A stretch of DNA of 64,000 nt from Conexibacter sp. SYSU D00693 (GTDB lineage: Bacteria; Actinomycetota; Thermoleophilia; Solirubrobacterales; Solirubrobacteraceae). Of this stretch, positions 11,488-29,797 are shown one piece after another (position 1 is the stretch's first letter; every line of letters starts with the position of its first letter). The position numbers and the translations under genes were made by a program. Location of the stretch: positions 1,550,001-1,614,000 of the forward strand of contig NZ_CP070950.1 in NCBI RefSeq assembly GCF_017084525.1, given 5' to 3'. The notes under the pieces were generated by a model. The model was not told the origin of the DNA. It did not search any database and saw only the letters and a program-made list of their open reading frames with translations.

Positions 11488-12623
11488 CAGCTCAGGACCT
11501 CCACGCCGGGGAGGGTCTTGCCCTCGATGAGCTCCAGCGACGCGCCGCCGCCGGTCGACAGGTGGGTCACGCCGTCCTCCAGGCCGAACTGCTTCAGGGC
11601 CGCGGCGCTGTCCCCGCCGCCGACCACGGTGGTGCCGGGGGCGGCCGCGACGGCCTCCGCGACGCCCTTGGTGCCCGCCGCGAACGGGGCGAGCTCGAAG
11701 GCCCCCATGGGGCCGTTCCAGAACACGGTGCCCGCCGAGCCGATCGCCTCGGCGTAGGCCGCCACGGTCCTCGGGCCCACGTCGAGGCCCATCAGCCCCT
11801 CGGGCACGTCGACGCCGTCGAGCGCGGTCACCGGCGTCGACGCGTCGAACGCCTCGCCGCAGACGAGGTCCACCGGCAGCCTGAGCTTGTCGGCGGCGGC
11901 GTCGAGCACGCGGCGGGCGGGGTCCAGGCCCTCCTCCTCGCACAGCGACGCCCCGACCTCATGGCCCTGGGCCTTGAAGAACGGGAAGCACATGGCGCCC
12001 CCGACCAGGACGGTGTCCGCGCGGTCGAGGAACGCCTCGAGGACGCCGAGCTTGTCGGTGACCTTCGCGCCGCCGACGATGGCGACCATCGGCCGCTGCG
12101 GCGCCTCGAGGATGCCGGTGAGCGTCTCGACCTCGCGCTGGAGCAGGAGCCCGGCGGCGCTCGGCAGGAGCTTGGCGACGGCGTGCGTCGAGCTGTGCGC
12201 GCGGTGCGCGGCGCCGAACGCGTCGTCGACGTAGACGTCGCCGAGCCGCGCGTAGCGCGCGGCGAGCGCCTCGTCGTCCTTCGTCTCGCCGTCGAAGAAC
12301 CGGACGTTCTCGACCATCACGACGGCGGCCTGGGAGGTCGGCTCGGGCTCGTCGACGAGCGCGACCTCCTCACCCAGCAGCTCGCCCAGGCGGGCGGCGA
12401 CGGGCGCGAGTGACAGGGCGGGGTCCTTGCCCTTGGGGCGGCCGAGGTGGGCCAGCAGCGTCAGCTGCGCGGCCCCGCGCCGCCGAAGCTCCTCGAGCGT
12501 CGGCAGCGCGGCACGGATCCGCTGGTCGTCCGTGATCGCGCCGTCGCTGAGCGGGACGTTGAAGTCCACGCGCGCGACGACGCGCTTGCCTGCGAGGTCC
12601 CCGAGGTCGTCGAGGGTGCGCAA
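11487..12623 (-). CDS. pgk: Phosphoglycerate kinase
   Basis: A 378-residue enzyme converting 1,3-bisphosphoglycerate and ADP to 3-phosphoglycerate and ATP. It has the N-terminal substrate motif RVDFNVPL, the LLAHLGRPKG loop, and the C-terminal nucleotide segment VVGGGDSAAA. It starts at a TTG directly after the gap stop with no gap, and upstream AAGG in the end of gap can serve as ribosome-binding site. The length is slightly short for the family (about 390-400) but no domain is missing. Confidence 0.96.
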   Translation of the reverse strand: MRTLDDLGDLAGKRVVARVDFNVPLSDGAITDDQRIRAALPTLEELRRRGAAQLTLLAHLGRPKGKDPALSLAPVAARLGELLGEEVALVDEPEPTSQAAVVMVENVRFFDGETKDDEALAARYARLGDVYVDDAFGAAHRAHSSTHAVAKLLPSAAGLLLQREVETLTGILEAPQRPMVAIVGGAKVTDKLGVLEAFLDRADTVLVGGAMCFPFFKAQGHEVGASLCEEEGLDPARRVLDAAADKLRLPVDLVCGEAFDASTPVTALDGVDVPEGLMGLDVGPRTVAAYAEAIGSAGTVFWNGPMGAFELAPFAAGTKGVAEAVAAAPGTTVVGGGDSAAALKQFGLEDGVTHLSTGGGASLELIEGKTLPGVEVLS

Positions 12624-15207
<2,584 letters not shown>

Positions 15208-25268: not shown

Positions 25269-26633
25269 TCACGCCACGAGGCGCACCTCCAGCCCGGCGG
25301 CCGGCACCAGCAGGTCGCCGGCGCCGTGCAGGAGCCCGAGGATCCGCACCACGTAGTCCTGCGTCTCGCGGAACGGCGGGATGCCGCCGAACCGCTGGAC
25401 CGCCCCGGGCCCCGCGTTGTAGGCCGCCAGGGCCAGGGGCACCGAGCCGAACTGGCGCAGCAGGTCGCGCATCAGGTGCGCCTGCGCGTCGATCGCCTGC
25501 TCGGGGTCGAACGGGTCGCGCAGGCCCAGCGACCGTGCCGTCCCTGGCATGAACTGCGCGATGCCCATCGCCCCGGCGCCGGAGCGCGCGTCCGGGTCGA
25601 AGCCGGACTCCTGGCGCAGCTGTGCCGCCAGCAGCGCCGCCGAGATCGACCACCGCATCGCCGCCCTGGCGATGGTCGCGCGAAAGCGCGCCGGCACCCA
25701 CGACGGCAGGCCCGAGCCCGGGCCCCCGCCCTCCCCTCCGCCGCCGGCGCCGTCGTCGCCGCCGCGCTCCGCGGCGCGCACCTCGGGCACCGCGCCGACG
25801 GACACCGATCCGGGGTTCCTGACGAAGCCGAAGTGCCAGGGCTCCCAGCCGTAGCGCTGGAGGAAGCCGAAGCGCTTGGCGTTCGCCGCGAGCCACCCGT
25901 ACGCCGCGCGCGGGCCGAGGTCGAGCTCCGTCCCGAGGCGGTGCAGCGACGTGCCGGGCCGTGCGACCCACTTCGGGTCCGGGTGGCGGGCCCAGAGGAC
26001 GGCCTGCTCGGCGTCGCTGCGAAACGCGCTCGTGATGAGCAGCGTGACGCCGTCGGCGCGCGCCGCTGCGGCCATCCGGTCGAACGCCAGGGCGACGTCG
26101 GGCCGCATCGGCTTGCCCTGCCTGGTCGCGAACGGCCCCCGGTACTCGCCAGGGTTGCCGCTCAGCAGCGGGGCCATCCCGGCGCCCGCGTCGGGCACGA
26201 GCTCGGCCTGCGCGCGCACGGTCACCGGCACGTCGAAGCGGCCGACCTCGATCGGGCGCGCGTCGCGCACGTCGATGCGCAGCGGCGGCAGGCCGTCCTC
26301 CGACGGCAGGTCGACCTCCACGTCGGCGACGCCGTTGCGCCGCGCGGTCGCCCGCGCCGCCGCGCGACCCAGCTCGAGGTAGCGCGGGTGGCTCAGCCAC
26401 CGCGGGTTCGCCGCGCCGCCGACCTCCGGGGGCTCGAACAGCCGCGGGTAGGCCTCGCGCATCGCCCGGGCACCGGCCAGCGCTGCGAGGTCCATCGCCC
26501 GCTGGCGGTCGCTGCGCTGCGCCAGTGCCGCTCCGAGGCCGCCGAGCAGCAGCGCGCCGAGGAGCACCGCGACGAGCAGGCCGACCAGGACGACCGTCGC
26601 CTGCCCGTCCTCGCTGCACCCGCGTGCTCGCAC
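25269..26633 (-). CDS. TadG-like / VanY carboxypeptidase / lytic transglycosylase fusion
   Basis: A 454-residue three-part protein. Residues 6-60 are a TadE/G-type pseudopilin N-terminus: G10-Q11 junction before a hydrophobic helix, then QRAMDLAALAGARAM. Residues about 165-272 are a VanY-type D-Ala-D-Ala carboxypeptidase with SAFRS, zinc ligands His231, Asp238 and His267, and catalytic Glu264 (GWEPWHF). A Gly-rich linker joins an SLT lytic transglycosylase (about 315-435) with catalytic Glu342 in RQESGFDP, MGIAQFMP and AYNAGPGAV. All catalytic residues are present. It should be membrane-anchored with both enzymes facing the cell wall. It is the last gene of the pseudopilin cluster; the start is GTG. 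Confidence 0.88.
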   Translation of the reverse strand: MRARGCSEDGQATVVLVGLLVAVLLGALLLGGLGAALAQRSDRQRAMDLAALAGARAMREAYPRLFEPPEVGGAANPRWLSHPRYLELGRAAARATARRNGVADVEVDLPSEDGLPPLRIDVRDARPIEVGRFDVPVTVRAQAELVPDAGAGMAPLLSGNPGEYRGPFATRQGKPMRPDVALAFDRMAAAARADGVTLLITSAFRSDAEQAVLWARHPDPKWVARPGTSLHRLGTELDLGPRAAYGWLAANAKRFGFLQRYGWEPWHFGFVRNPGSVSVGAVPEVRAAERGGDDGAGGGGEGGGPGSGLPSWVPARFRATIARAAMRWSISAALLAAQLRQESGFDPDARSGAGAMGIAQFMPGTARSLGLRDPFDPEQAIDAQAHLMRDLLRQFGSVPLALAAYNAGPGAVQRFGGIPPFRETQDYVVRILGLLHGAGDLLVPAAGLEVRLVA

Positions 26634-26696
26634 CCGCGCAGCGTCCCGGGAGACGCGTCACGGAACAGCACGCGAACGTCACGGGAGCACACGCGG

Positions 26697-27512
26697 TCAG
26701 CTCCAGCGGTCCCAGGCGTGGAGGTGCGGACGGGGGTCGACGAGCCGGCCACCGACGCGCAGCTCGAAGTGCAGGTGGCAGCCGGTCGTGCGGGCGTTGC
26801 CCGTGTCGCCGACGGAGCCGATGCGCTGGCCGGTGCGGACACGCTCGCCGCGACGGACCAGCGGGCGGTCGCGCAGGTGGGCGTAGCGGTAGGTGCGGCC
26901 GTCGAGCAGGCCGCGGACGACCACCTCGTGGCCGTAGAGGACCGGGTCGAAGCGGCTGCGCACGACGCGGCCGGCGCGCGCGGCGACCAGGGGCGTGCCG
27001 CACGGCGCGTTGACGTCGAAGCCCTCGTGGGTCCGGCCGCCGTTGCGCCCGGCTCCGAACTGCCCGATCGCGCCCCGGTCGGCGTGCCGCCCGCGGATGG
27101 GGAACGTCCTGCCGCGCAGCACGAACATCCCCAGGCGGCGGCGCACCGTCGTCCCCGGGACCACGACGCGCACGCGGTAGCGCCCGTCCGCGGCGGCCCG
27201 GCCGTCCCCGGTCACGCCGTCCCACGTCACGCGGCGCCGCATGCCGGGCAGCACGTCGGCGACGACCATCCGGCGTGCGATGCGGCCGGTCCGGTCGCTC
27301 GTGACCTCGACGTGCAGCAGCGGCGGCGCCGGCGCTGTCACGGCGAAGGAGACCGCGACGGGCTCCCCGCCGAAGAAGGCCGTGGACGGCGCGACGCGCG
27401 GCGCCTCGAGGGTCAGCGCGGGCGTCGCGGCGGTCGTCGAGGGCGCGGCGGCGGCCGGAGCGCCGAGGGCGCCGGTGATCGCGAGGGCGGCGACGGCGGG
27501 GCGAGCGAGCAC
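26697..27512 (-). CDS. Secreted M23 (LytM-type) endopeptidase
   Basis: A 271-residue protein with an N-terminal signal peptide (cleavage near residue 23). Residues 35-125 form a beta-rich domain with a FlgD-like ADGRYRVRVVV ending. The peptidase domain (about 140-262) has intact zinc ligands His162, Asp166 and His248 and the catalytic pair His212/His246 (HEGFD, AHL, HLHFEL). It should cut peptide cross-links in peptidoglycan. It lies between two pseudopilin-type genes and the pseudopilin-hydrolase fusion, so wall remodelling seems part of that locus's job. The start is GTG. Confidence 0.9.
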   Translation of the reverse strand: MLARPAVAALAITGALGAPAAAAPSTTAATPALTLEAPRVAPSTAFFGGEPVAVSFAVTAPAPPLLHVEVTSDRTGRIARRMVVADVLPGMRRRVTWDGVTGDGRAAADGRYRVRVVVPGTTVRRRLGMFVLRGRTFPIRGRHADRGAIGQFGAGRNGGRTHEGFDVNAPCGTPLVAARAGRVVRSRFDPVLYGHEVVVRGLLDGRTYRYAHLRDRPLVRRGERVRTGQRIGSVGDTGNARTTGCHLHFELRVGGRLVDPRPHLHAWDRWS

Positions 27513-27519
27513 GGGGGCA

Positions 27520-28314
27520 TCATCGCGAGCGCCCGTCGTGCCTCGTCGCGCCGCCCTCGTGGCCGCGCAGCGCCGCGTCGGCCGCGCGGCGCAGCGCCGG
27601 CGGGATGGTGAGACCCGAGGTGACGACGGTGCGACCCGGGCCGGGCGGCAGGACGAGGTGGCCCGTCCCCCGACCGCCCCGCGCGGCGTCCGCCACGGCC
27701 AGTGCGGTCAGCGCGTCGGAGGCGCCCGGCGGCGTGGCGACGACGATCCTGTCGGCGTGGGCGAGGAGCGGCGCGAAGGCCGGGTCGTTCGGGCCGCCGA
27801 GGGCGAGGATGAGCGGCAGGCCGAGACCTGCCGCGCGGCCCGCAGCGTCGGCGGCGGCGTCCACGTCGCCGGGCAGCGGGAGGACGGCGAGCCGCCCGCG
27901 CGCCGCCGCTGGCAGCCCCCGCGCCTCGAGCGCCTTCGCCGCGCGCCGGGCCGCGGGTGCGGCGAGCAGCGCGGGCGGTGGAGCCTCGGCGTGCGGCGTG
28001 CGGTGGTCGCGGTCGTCCGGAGCAGCGGGCAGGTCGCCGCCCTGGTCGGCGGGCGCGTCCCGGTCACCAGGTGCCCACACCGCCAGGACCGCGGCGTCCC
28101 TGCCCGAGCCCGGCAGCGCGAGGGCGATGGCGGCGCCCGCGACGGCAGCGTCCTGGGCGCGAGCGACGACCGCGACGAAGGGCGGCATCCCGGGCGGCAC
28201 GCCGTCGCCGGCCGAGGGCGGCGCGAACCGGGACGCCTCGGGCGCGTAGGGGCTCGGGGCCGGTGCCGTCGCCGGGGCGGTGAGGAAGAGGCGGACGAGG
28301 CGGTCGAAGGTCAT
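27520..28314 (-). CDS. Unknown protein in the pseudopilin cluster
   Basis: A 264-residue Ala/Pro/Gly-rich protein with no family I can name. It starts at ATG 28314, overlapping the upstream TadE-like stop (ATGA). The first 12 residues are weakly hydrophobic. Two segments look like alternating strands and helices (FVAVVARAQDAAVAGAAIALALPG and later LGLPLILALGG, ADRIVVATPPGASDALTALAVAD), reminiscent of the Rossmann-like or partner-switching proteins in Tad loci such as CpaE. No Walker motif is present. Its place between pseudopilins and hydrolases suggests an assembly or localisation role; this is inference. Confidence 0.7.
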   Translation of the reverse strand: MTFDRLVRLFLTAPATAPAPSPYAPEASRFAPPSAGDGVPPGMPPFVAVVARAQDAAVAGAAIALALPGSGRDAAVLAVWAPGDRDAPADQGGDLPAAPDDRDHRTPHAEAPPPALLAAPAARRAAKALEARGLPAAARGRLAVLPLPGDVDAAADAAGRAAGLGLPLILALGGPNDPAFAPLLAHADRIVVATPPGASDALTALAVADAARGGRGTGHLVLPPGPGRTVVTSGLTIPPALRRAADAALRGHEGGATRHDGRSR

Positions 28315-28730
28315 CCGCGCGGCCCTCCGGCAACGGCGGCCTCGGGCGAGGGCCCGGCGTCGGCGCTGCGGCGGGCGGTGAGCGTGCCGGCGAGGCCGGG
28401 GAGGAGCGCGACCGGACGCAGCTCGACCTCGACGTGGTGGCCGTCGACGCGTACTCGCGTGCGGTCCTTCGACCAGTCGGGCAGGGCGCGGCGCACCGCG
28501 GCCCGCGCATCGCCGTCGCCCTGCACGATCGCCATCGCCCCGGCCTGCGCGGCCTGGCCCGCGAGCTCGCGGGCGACGCCCGCCGCGAGGAGCTGCGCGA
28601 CGGCCAGCGCGACCGCGACGACGAGCGGGATGGCCGCGACGAGCTCGACGCTCGCCTGCCCGCGCTCGCTCCGGTGGAGCTGCGCCCGGACACCGGATGG
28701 ACGCGAGGACCGGGCAGGGGCGGGCCTCAT
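28311..28730 (-). CDS. TadE-like pseudopilin, second
   Basis: A 139-residue protein with a basic N-terminus, the junction ERGQASVELVAAIP (prepilin-type G|Q cleavage and conserved Glu) and one hydrophobic helix, then an extracytoplasmic domain of about 80 residues. This is the TadE/TadF minor-pseudopilin layout of Flp/Tad pili. The gene overlaps its neighbours on both sides by ATGA, so three genes are translationally coupled. A prepilin peptidase and motor ATPase would be needed and are not nearby. Confidence 0.85.
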   Translation of the reverse strand: MRPAPARSSRPSGVRAQLHRSERGQASVELVAAIPLVVAVALAVAQLLAAGVARELAGQAAQAGAMAIVQGDGDARAAVRRALPDWSKDRTRVRVDGHHVEVELRPVALLPGLAGTLTARRSADAGPSPEAAVAGGPRG

Positions 28731-29095
28731 CGCTGGGGCTCCATCCACGTGCGCGCGGTGTAGGTGCCGAGCCTGGCGCCGCCGACGACCGCGGGCAGGC
28801 GCACGCGCACCGCGACCTCGCCCCCGTCGTCGGTCGTGACGCGCAGGCCGTGGTCGAGCCGCGGCGGGAGAACGCCCTCGGCGGCCGCGCGCGCGTCCGC
28901 GCCGATCGCCGCGGCACGCGCCGCCGCCTTCGCCGCCGCGCCCGCCGACCACAGCGCGTGGCCGAGCACCACCGCCTGCCAGAGGAGGAGCCCGACGAGC
29001 ACGAGCAGCGGCAGCAGCGCGATCAGCTCGACGGTCGCCTGGCCGGCACAGTCGCGGGGCGCACCGGCGCAGAGGCGGCGGGATCTCGGGGACAC
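28727..29095 (-). CDS. TadE-like pseudopilin, first
   Basis: A 122-residue pseudopilin. CAGQATVELIALLP gives the prepilin-type cleavage context with the conserved Glu at +5, followed by a hydrophobic helix to about residue 45 and an Ala-rich, then beta-rich C-terminus. It is the first gene of a five-gene minus-strand cluster. The start is GTG 29095, with no clear Shine-Dalgarno; the interval upstream carries an inverted repeat and tandem repeats. Confidence 0.83.
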   Translation of the reverse strand: MSPRSRRLCAGAPRDCAGQATVELIALLPLLVLVGLLLWQAVVLGHALWSAGAAAKAAARAAAIGADARAAAEGVLPPRLDHGLRVTTDDGGEVAVRVRLPAVVGGARLGTYTARTWMEPQR

Positions 29096-29218
29096 GCGCG
29101 CATGGTCGGCGAGCGGCCGTCACGGGTCAGCACGCGGGTGTTGCAGGACTGCGCAGCGCCTGGTGCGACCGACACGCGCGGGGAGCGACGAGCCGGGCGC
29201 GGCGAGCGGCGCGCCGTA

Positions 29219-29267
29219 CGTGACCCTGGAGTTGACCGCCTCTGCGGCGGTCAACTCCAGGGTCACG
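29219..29267. repeat. Perfect 22-bp inverted repeat with 5-nt loop
   Basis: Arms at 29219-29240 and 29246-29267 are perfectly complementary around TCTGC. Each arm contains CTGGAGTTGACC, which resembles half of some MerR-family operators. The element is in the 336-bp gene-free interval between the membrane-protein gene (29432-29797) and the pseudopilin cluster. It could terminate minus-strand transcripts from the right, serve as an operator for the cluster, or be the remnant of a mobile element. Confidence 0.8.
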
Positions 29268-29314
29268 AGAGCGAGGCGGTCAACCTCAAGCTCACCGGCG
29301 GCTGCCAGTTCGTC

Positions 29315-29390
29315 GACCGCCCCGAACCCTCACGGCCGCCCCGAACCCTCACCACCGCCCCGAACCCTCACCACCGCCCCGAACCCGCAC
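29315..29390. repeat. 19-bp tandem repeat, four copies
   Basis: Four head-to-tail units of 19 bp (29315-29333, 29334-29352, 29353-29371, 29372-29390) share CCGCCCCGAACCCTCAC and differ mainly in the first two bases. The period is not a multiple of three, so it is unlikely to be coding. It lies in the same gene-free interval as the 22-bp inverted repeat; otherwise I see nothing else in 29096-29431. Confidence 0.8.
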
Positions 29391-29431
29391 GACCGCCCGA
29401 GCCGCGCCGGACCGCGTCACCGGCGTCGCCC

Positions 29432-29797
29432 CTAGATCCCGTACGCCCGCCACTGCCGGTACACCAGCACGAGCGCGTAGATCGCGCCGCCCATGAGCGC
29501 GAAGAAGACGACGATCCCGATGCTCGAGCCCTCGTCCAGCAGCTTGTCCCGCGCCGCCATCGCGACGGCGAACGCCCCGAGGGCGCCGTAGAGCATCGCC
29601 CGGTGCCGGTCGCCCAGGCCGAAGACGTCCGAGCGGTTCTCGCGGTACAGGTGCACGAGGAACCAGACGAGCGCGACGAGGATGCCGACGGACAGCAGCG
29701 CGCCGATGAAGTCGGCGGTGTCCCCCGCGCCCGGCAGGAACGCGACGAGCGCCGCGAGCGCCACGAGGATGAGGACGTTGCGGACGCCGGTCGTCAT
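29432..29797 (-). CDS. Small integral membrane protein, unknown function
   Basis: A 121-residue protein with about four predicted transmembrane segments (roughly 7-22, 30-50, 66-82 and 92-112) and short charged loops (LYRENRSD, GDRHRAM). I do not recognise a family. It starts with ATG 29797 and lies downstream of the PhoB-like gene, separated from it by a GC-rich hairpin, so it is probably not in the same transcript. Confidence 0.7.
   Translation of the reverse strand: MTTGVRNVLILVALAALVAFLPGAGDTADFIGALLSVGILVALVWFLVHLYRENRSDVFGLGDRHRAMLYGALGAFAVAMAARDKLLDEGSSIGIVVFFALMGGAIYALVLVYRQWRAYGI

Follow-up and report, generated by a model that had tools for sequence, protein, structure and literature searches.

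Five closely packed minus-strand genes at positions 25,269 to 29,095 of the window, that is, of the whole 64,000-nucleotide stretch analysed here (positions 1,550,001 to 1,614,000 of contig NZ_CP070950.1, or G000:C1:1550001-1614000, from the complete 4.43 Mb genome of Conexibacter sp. SYSU D00693), include the genes of two TadE-like pseudopilins and of a TadG-like protein fused to two wall-cutting enzymes (hereafter, the fusion). This cluster quite probably encodes the half of a dispersed Tad-type (type IVc) machine that faces the wall, with a peptidoglycan-opening module of its own. The Tad motor genes lie in a second locus 392 kb away on the same chromosome, and within the order Solirubrobacterales the two loci occur together almost without exception.

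An earlier sequence-only reading of this DNA had presented the cluster as pseudopilin genes joined to peptidoglycan hydrolases without a Tad motor. The usual genes are indeed missing from the window, in which no Tad ATPase, platform gene or prepilin peptidase was found; at the level of the genome the headline is wrong, and the search for tadA, tadB and tadC that the same reading had proposed recovers all three, together with RcpC/CpaB, at about 1.180–1.183 Mb. TadA (G000:C1:1182104-1183291) matches T2SSE PF00437 with 202 bits, the contiguous TadB and TadC match T2SSF PF00482 with 35.0 and 56.5 bits, and the RcpC/CpaB gene upstream of TadA matches SAF PF08666 with 37.6 bits and RcpC PF16976 with 29.1 bits (cut-off, 28.8). 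The motor genes are flanked by this RcpC/CpaB gene and a two-component pair upstream and by mraZ downstream, beside the cell-division (dcw) cluster; the contiguous TadABC set adjoins mraZ and the dcw cluster in this genome and in the 13 Solirubrobacterales relatives inspected, and the motor genes do so in a second order of the class as well. Several relatives (L078, L084, L091, L094 and L095) possess a second Tad locus with a TadA-type ATPase, a CpaE-like protein and, in some, Flp, which is clearly a different system, unrelated in position to the split one.

The association of the two loci was assessed by a hand tally of the fusion and of the dcw-type TadA, the latter assigned by identity and not by context in most genomes, in which 111 of the 112 good Solirubrobacterales genomes could be placed. 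Both are present in 71 genomes and neither in 31, with the fusion alone in eight and TadA alone in one (Fisher p about 6e-19), a near-perfect co-occurrence that, along with the distant motor, supports the alternative raised in the sequence-only reading, namely that the cluster serves a Tad apparatus encoded elsewhere. In the genomes inspected, the two loci never form one operon. The fusion-only genomes were considered as proof of independence from the motor, which was rejected for the seven examined of these eight: a contig ends inside tadC or tadB in three (G113, G081 and G056) and beside rsmH in a fourth (G137), and the dcw locus is missing from the assembly in another three (G083, G160 and G029). 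Conversely, in four complete or near-complete genomes that lack the fusion (G048, G063, G107 and G045), the dcw locus is intact but holds no TadABC. A tree of dcw proteins divides these four between two clades with ultrafast bootstrap values of 100 and 93, of which the former is sister to two fusion-bearing genomes (support 94), and a single clade of fusion-negative genomes is rejected (approximately unbiased test, p 0.03); therefore, both loci have probably been lost together twice, in separate clades, a conclusion with modest support given the four negative genomes in the tree.

In the window, the locus comprises the following features, with the small membrane protein added upstream of the five genes.
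29432..29797, minus strand: small membrane protein, 121 amino acids, 3–4 predicted transmembrane segments (gene call, synteny, alignment, hydropathy).
28727..29095, minus strand: TadE1, TadE-like pseudopilin, motif G|QATVE (weak Pfam and NCBIfam matches, motif).
28311..28730, minus strand: TadE2, TadE-like pseudopilin, motif G|QASVE (weak Pfam and NCBIfam matches, motif, ATGA overlaps on both sides).
27520..28314, minus strand: gene 3, putative degenerate TadZ-like protein (MinD/ParA superfamily), Walker A motif lost here (chain of profile matches).
26697..27512, minus strand: M23 endopeptidase with FlgD-type Ig domain and signal peptide (Pfam M23 PF01551, FlgD_ig).
25269..26633, minus strand: the fusion, TadG-like N-terminus (PF13400), M15B D,D-carboxypeptidase (VanY) and SLT lytic transglycosylase (Pfam, catalytic residues).

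All five close-packed genes proved to be real open reading frames with the codon composition of coding DNA, as had been proposed; TadE1, TadE2 and gene 3 follow one another with 4-base overlaps (ATGA), the M23 gene begins 7 bases after gene 3, and the fusion begins 63 bases after the M23 gene. Full-length homologues of the fusion are widespread at 50–66% identity in the 201 Solirubrobacterales genomes searched and are also found in the second order (family f5) at about 47–53%. Comparison of the neighbourhoods of some 45 loci reveals a conserved unit in the order membrane protein (116–123 amino acids), TadE1, TadE2, gene 3 and fusion, usually followed by uvrC and rapZ. The small membrane protein is the constant upstream member in both orders, whereas the genes further upstream vary (PhoU with a response regulator, a phosphate transporter, or an apparent threonyl-tRNA synthetase), which indicates that the unit is conserved in its own right; a reduced version, with gene 3 missing from the pseudopilin cluster, occurs in the second order. 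No TadA, TadB or TadC gene was found in the neighbourhoods of these loci, and the cluster was never seen inside a complete Tad operon in the relatives. The comparison of gene order thus upholds four of the five genes, with the membrane protein as an addition; the M23 gene, which the sequence-only reading had counted as a member, is absent from this position in every relative examined, was rejected as part of the system, and is a local insertion outside the conserved unit. Among the matches listed in a genome scan with the single pattern LALAAYNAG, full-length fusions came solely from Solirubrobacterales or from one unplaced actinobacterial metagenome-assembled genome; the scan caught many unrelated SLT proteins and does not bound the distribution outside the class.

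The small membrane protein matched no known family and shows 28–57% identity across the aligned relatives; its candidacy as a mini prepilin peptidase, suggested by a weak A24 match and a GLGD motif, was rejected because that motif is not conserved. The intergenic region upstream of TadE1 (29096-29431) contains repeated 'gttcggggcggtcgtgag'-like units and an apparent inverted repeat.

Mobile elements interrupt genes of both loci in two relatives. In a genome of the same genus (G144, locus L323), an element of about 10.7 kb with a large serine recombinase (12135-13652, minus strand) splits the TadG/VanY/SLT gene into pieces at 2167-2954 and from about 13693; the break coincides with the codons for the catalytic motif WEPWHY|GF, and GCACTACG is common to both sides. 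In a genome of the second order (G206; L280, L281, L324 and L325), an element of about 30 kb, whose edge carries a large serine recombinase, interrupts tadA at EALDMLSA|MTTGH; judged by eye, it seems to encode a DNA methyltransferase and a Vsr-like nuclease as well as large multi-gene systems (L325: 8259-9308, 6918-7262 and neighbours), and it is perhaps a defence island. The two cases recall elements that integrate in competence or sporulation genes.

In TadE1 and TadE2, the TadE PF07811 matches remain below cut-off (E 0.065 and 0.015) and NCBIfam TadE_Rv3655c matches weakly, whereas both proteins contain the full prepilin motif with Glu+5 (GQATVE and GQASVE) followed by a hydrophobic helix, which bears out their earlier description as TadE-like pseudopilins. 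The fusion likewise has G|Q before its hydrophobic helix, as had been noted for all three pilin-like proteins, but it is devoid of Glu+5 (GQATVV). Among the relatives, the motif with E/D+5 is present in 71/83 TadE-like genes, in 3/46 fusion genes, and in at most 54/427 other short genes, some of which are unlabelled TadE genes; the two TadE helices thus show a conservation like that of pilins, not the lack of it that would have marked them as ordinary signal peptides. The N-terminus of the fusion matches Tad PF13400 above cut-off (24.8 bits), the match looked for in the TadG of a Tad system, and the remainder consists mostly of VanY PF02557 and SLT PF01464, so that the proposed joining of a TadG-like N-terminus to two wall-cutting enzymes is confirmed by Pfam. 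H231, D238, E264 and H267 of the M15 domain and E342 of the SLT domain are invariant across 11 aligned fusion homologues, and both enzyme domains are predicted to be active on peptidoglycan.

The middle gene of the unit, gene 3, matches no Pfam or NCBIfam family in this genome, and its possible identity emerges from the relatives. In the second order, the motor operon includes a MinD/ParA-type TadZ between RcpC and TadA and, after TadC, a Flp-like gene (G|SxxxE/DY, GSTTAEY type), whereas the Solirubrobacterales motor operon is without TadZ and gene 3 stands in the pseudopilin unit instead. Three gene 3 proteins (L227, L148 and L072) keep a Walker-A-like stretch, and in hhalign these Walker-bearing forms match the second-order TadZ at 93.8% and CpaE at 92.1% (best of 18 controls, 8%); the gene 3 profile of the Conexibacter family in turn matches the Walker-bearing forms at 75.7% (best control, 1.2%), and the second-order TadZ profile finds FleN and MinD in the Protein Data Bank at E 6e-13 and 7e-13. 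When this family's gene 3 is compared directly with TadZ, the match falls short of significance, a search of the same structure database with the three Walker-bearing sequences returned nothing significant, and AlphaFold models of gene 3 (its own and that of L148) reached a predicted local distance difference test of 44 and 42 and were not used. Along this chain, gene 3 would be a degraded TadZ of the MinD/ParA family. If so, the location of one component in the motor locus of one order and in the pseudopilin locus of the other links both loci as parts of a single machine. In G027 (family f1) and G023 (family f3), a single open frame, as read in the sequence and by Pfam, comprises gene 3 and the fusion; fusion proteins of similar length, judged by that length, suggest the same TadZ-TadG joining in others of these groups (G075, G081, G068 and G106).

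In the machine proposed here, the motor half would consist of RcpC/CpaB, the ATPase TadA and the platform TadB/TadC, encoded beside the dcw cluster. TadE1 and TadE2 would be minor pseudopilins, probably cleaved by the single A24 peptidase of the genome, that start a short pseudopilus, or make it up, on top of TadB/TadC. Through the TadG-like protein, the D,D-carboxypeptidase and the lytic transglycosylase would be placed outside the membrane at the assembly site, where glycan strands would be cleaved by the transglycosylase and stem peptides shortened by the carboxypeptidase; the gap would then not be re-crosslinked, allowing passage through the thick wall, while gene 3 may position or tether this wall-facing part from the cytoplasmic side. 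Both the domain fusion and the conservation of the catalytic residues are in keeping with a minor-pseudopilin module that would open the wall. From the sequences, we infer wall opening, enzyme activity, processing and filament formation, with DNA uptake, secretion or adhesion as candidate purposes.

No PF04964 match of note for Flp appeared in the genome; Pfam also misses the second-order Flp-like gene, so the absence of Flp is not established. The sole clear A24 peptidase is of PilD type with an N-terminal domain and lies beside type IV pilus pilins, and is thus no dedicated TadV; actinobacterial tadV is usually apart from the other tad genes (PMC4322843). Several observations weigh against the proposed machine: no Flp-type major pilin was found near either locus in Solirubrobacterales, and a Flp family search gave matches solely in genomes with a second, complete Tad operon, so that a filament may not exist; the lack of Glu+5 makes the entry of the fusion into a filament doubtful; gene 3 of this genome is linked to TadZ by a chain of profile matches, with unusable AlphaFold models; and most assignments of the dcw-type TadA were made by identity. 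A tentative and rather unlikely extension is that the Solirubrobacterales machine has lost its Flp filament and acts as a pilin-poor pseudopilus device, in which TadABC drives only TadE1/TadE2 and a TadZ-TadG transmembrane scaffold with a wall-cutting outer part; the wall would thereby be opened briefly, for secretion or for taking up DNA.

The same components admit other arrangements. The TadE- and TadG-like proteins could constitute the tip of a Tad pilus, whose enzymes would attack other cells on contact or drill through the cell's own wall during extension; TadEFG-type minor pilins have been proposed as tip complexes with variable exposed domains in the Kil pili of Myxococcus (PMC12075869), and the enzyme domains of the fusion are C-terminal, where a tip domain would sit. 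This is nonetheless unlikely: the TadG-like part lacks Glu+5 in nearly all relatives, the TadZ-TadG fusion proteins include a domain in the cytoplasm and would have to be cleaved before leaving the membrane, and the system is kept in streamlined genomes of 1.5–2 Mb, a better fit to housekeeping than to predation. A base anchor is favoured over a pilus tip precisely because the fusion is without Glu+5 and TadZ-TadG fusions exist.

Less probable still is a membrane-anchored wall remodeller of growth or division, in which the pilin-like helix is a mere anchor and the motor beside the dcw cluster also serves division. The adjacency of the motor genes to mraZ and dcw in both orders and the ordinary nature of the catalytic domains as wall enzymes would suit such a role, but whole clades without both loci keep an intact dcw cluster, and wherever both regions could be checked, the enzyme is always accompanied by two motif-bearing TadE pseudopilins and TadABC. 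An accessory role of the cluster in the genome's ordinary type IV pilus, with PilB/PilT/PilC near 0.39 Mb, is largely refuted and very improbable, even though this genome has a complete type IV pilus whose PilD is the only clear A24 peptidase. The fusion is kept in G042, G054 and five f5 genomes (G211, G216, G231, G274 and G283) in which TadA is the sole T2SSE ATPase found, with neither PilB nor PilT, which argues against such an accessory role, and genomes with a type IV pilus but no dcw-linked TadABC are without the cluster.

With regard to known systems, the closest family models are those of the mycobacterial Rv3654c-Rv3660c Tad locus: the NCBIfam Rv3655c and Rv3654c models give the best pseudopilin matches and also match the N-terminus of the fusion, below cut-off. 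In mycobacteria, this locus is one operon, with tadZ, tadA, tadB and tadC together. No TadE-like protein of that locus is known to carry enzymes.

The competence pili of Micrococcus luteus, also of Tad type, share with the present system a TadA/TadB/TadC motor, TadE/F minor pilins, a TadG-like PF13400 protein, two separate tad loci and a prepilin peptidase encoded elsewhere, and both loci are needed for one function in that actinobacterium (PMC4322843). In M. luteus, unlike here, both loci include a tadA, platform genes and TadE/G genes of their own, there is a Flp but no TadZ, and no peptidoglycan hydrolase is described (PMC4322843); here, motor and pseudopilins lie in different loci and TadG carries two wall enzymes. 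The Tad pilus of Pseudomonas aeruginosa, with its RcpC conduit, has counterparts of RcpC/CpaB, TadA, TadB, TadC, TadE, TadG and TadZ, but is a diderm system with a secretin and without the hydrolases fused to TadG here (PMC12307814); according to this 2025 structure paper, a peptidoglycan hydrolase had not previously been reported with a Tad pilus. LytF of Streptococcus sanguinis resembles the proposal in being a wall hydrolase that helps a competence pilus to emerge through the wall of a monoderm, and differs as a separate secreted CHAP-domain enzyme acting with a ComGC pilus, without a pilin-like fusion (PMC13192262). The Kil/Tad tip complexes of Myxococcus xanthus include TadE/F/G-like sets with variable extra domains, several in their own gene clusters, but serve predation, and the main text of the paper mentions neither peptidoglycan nor hydrolases (PMC12075869). 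A search of the open-access literature found no paper on Conexibacter with Tad or type IV pili. Measured against that literature, the parts are known Tad parts; the system differs in that two wall enzymes are joined to TadG, in its division between two loci and in the TadZ-TadG fusions.

For Tad and type IV filaments, a 2019 review regards possible roles in crossing the thick monoderm wall as speculation and raises the question of how the Tad assembly complex is kept together by TadZ and TadG (PMC6916266). If the present reading is true, the system would be a dedicated way for a Gram-positive-type bacterium to push a pilus-type machine through its own wall. With two wall enzymes covalently joined in a TadG-like protein across two orders, the question of wall crossing becomes testable in a cultured relative such as Conexibacter, and the TadZ-like/TadG-like fusions of some species would make the manner in which TadZ and TadG hold the complex testable in turn.

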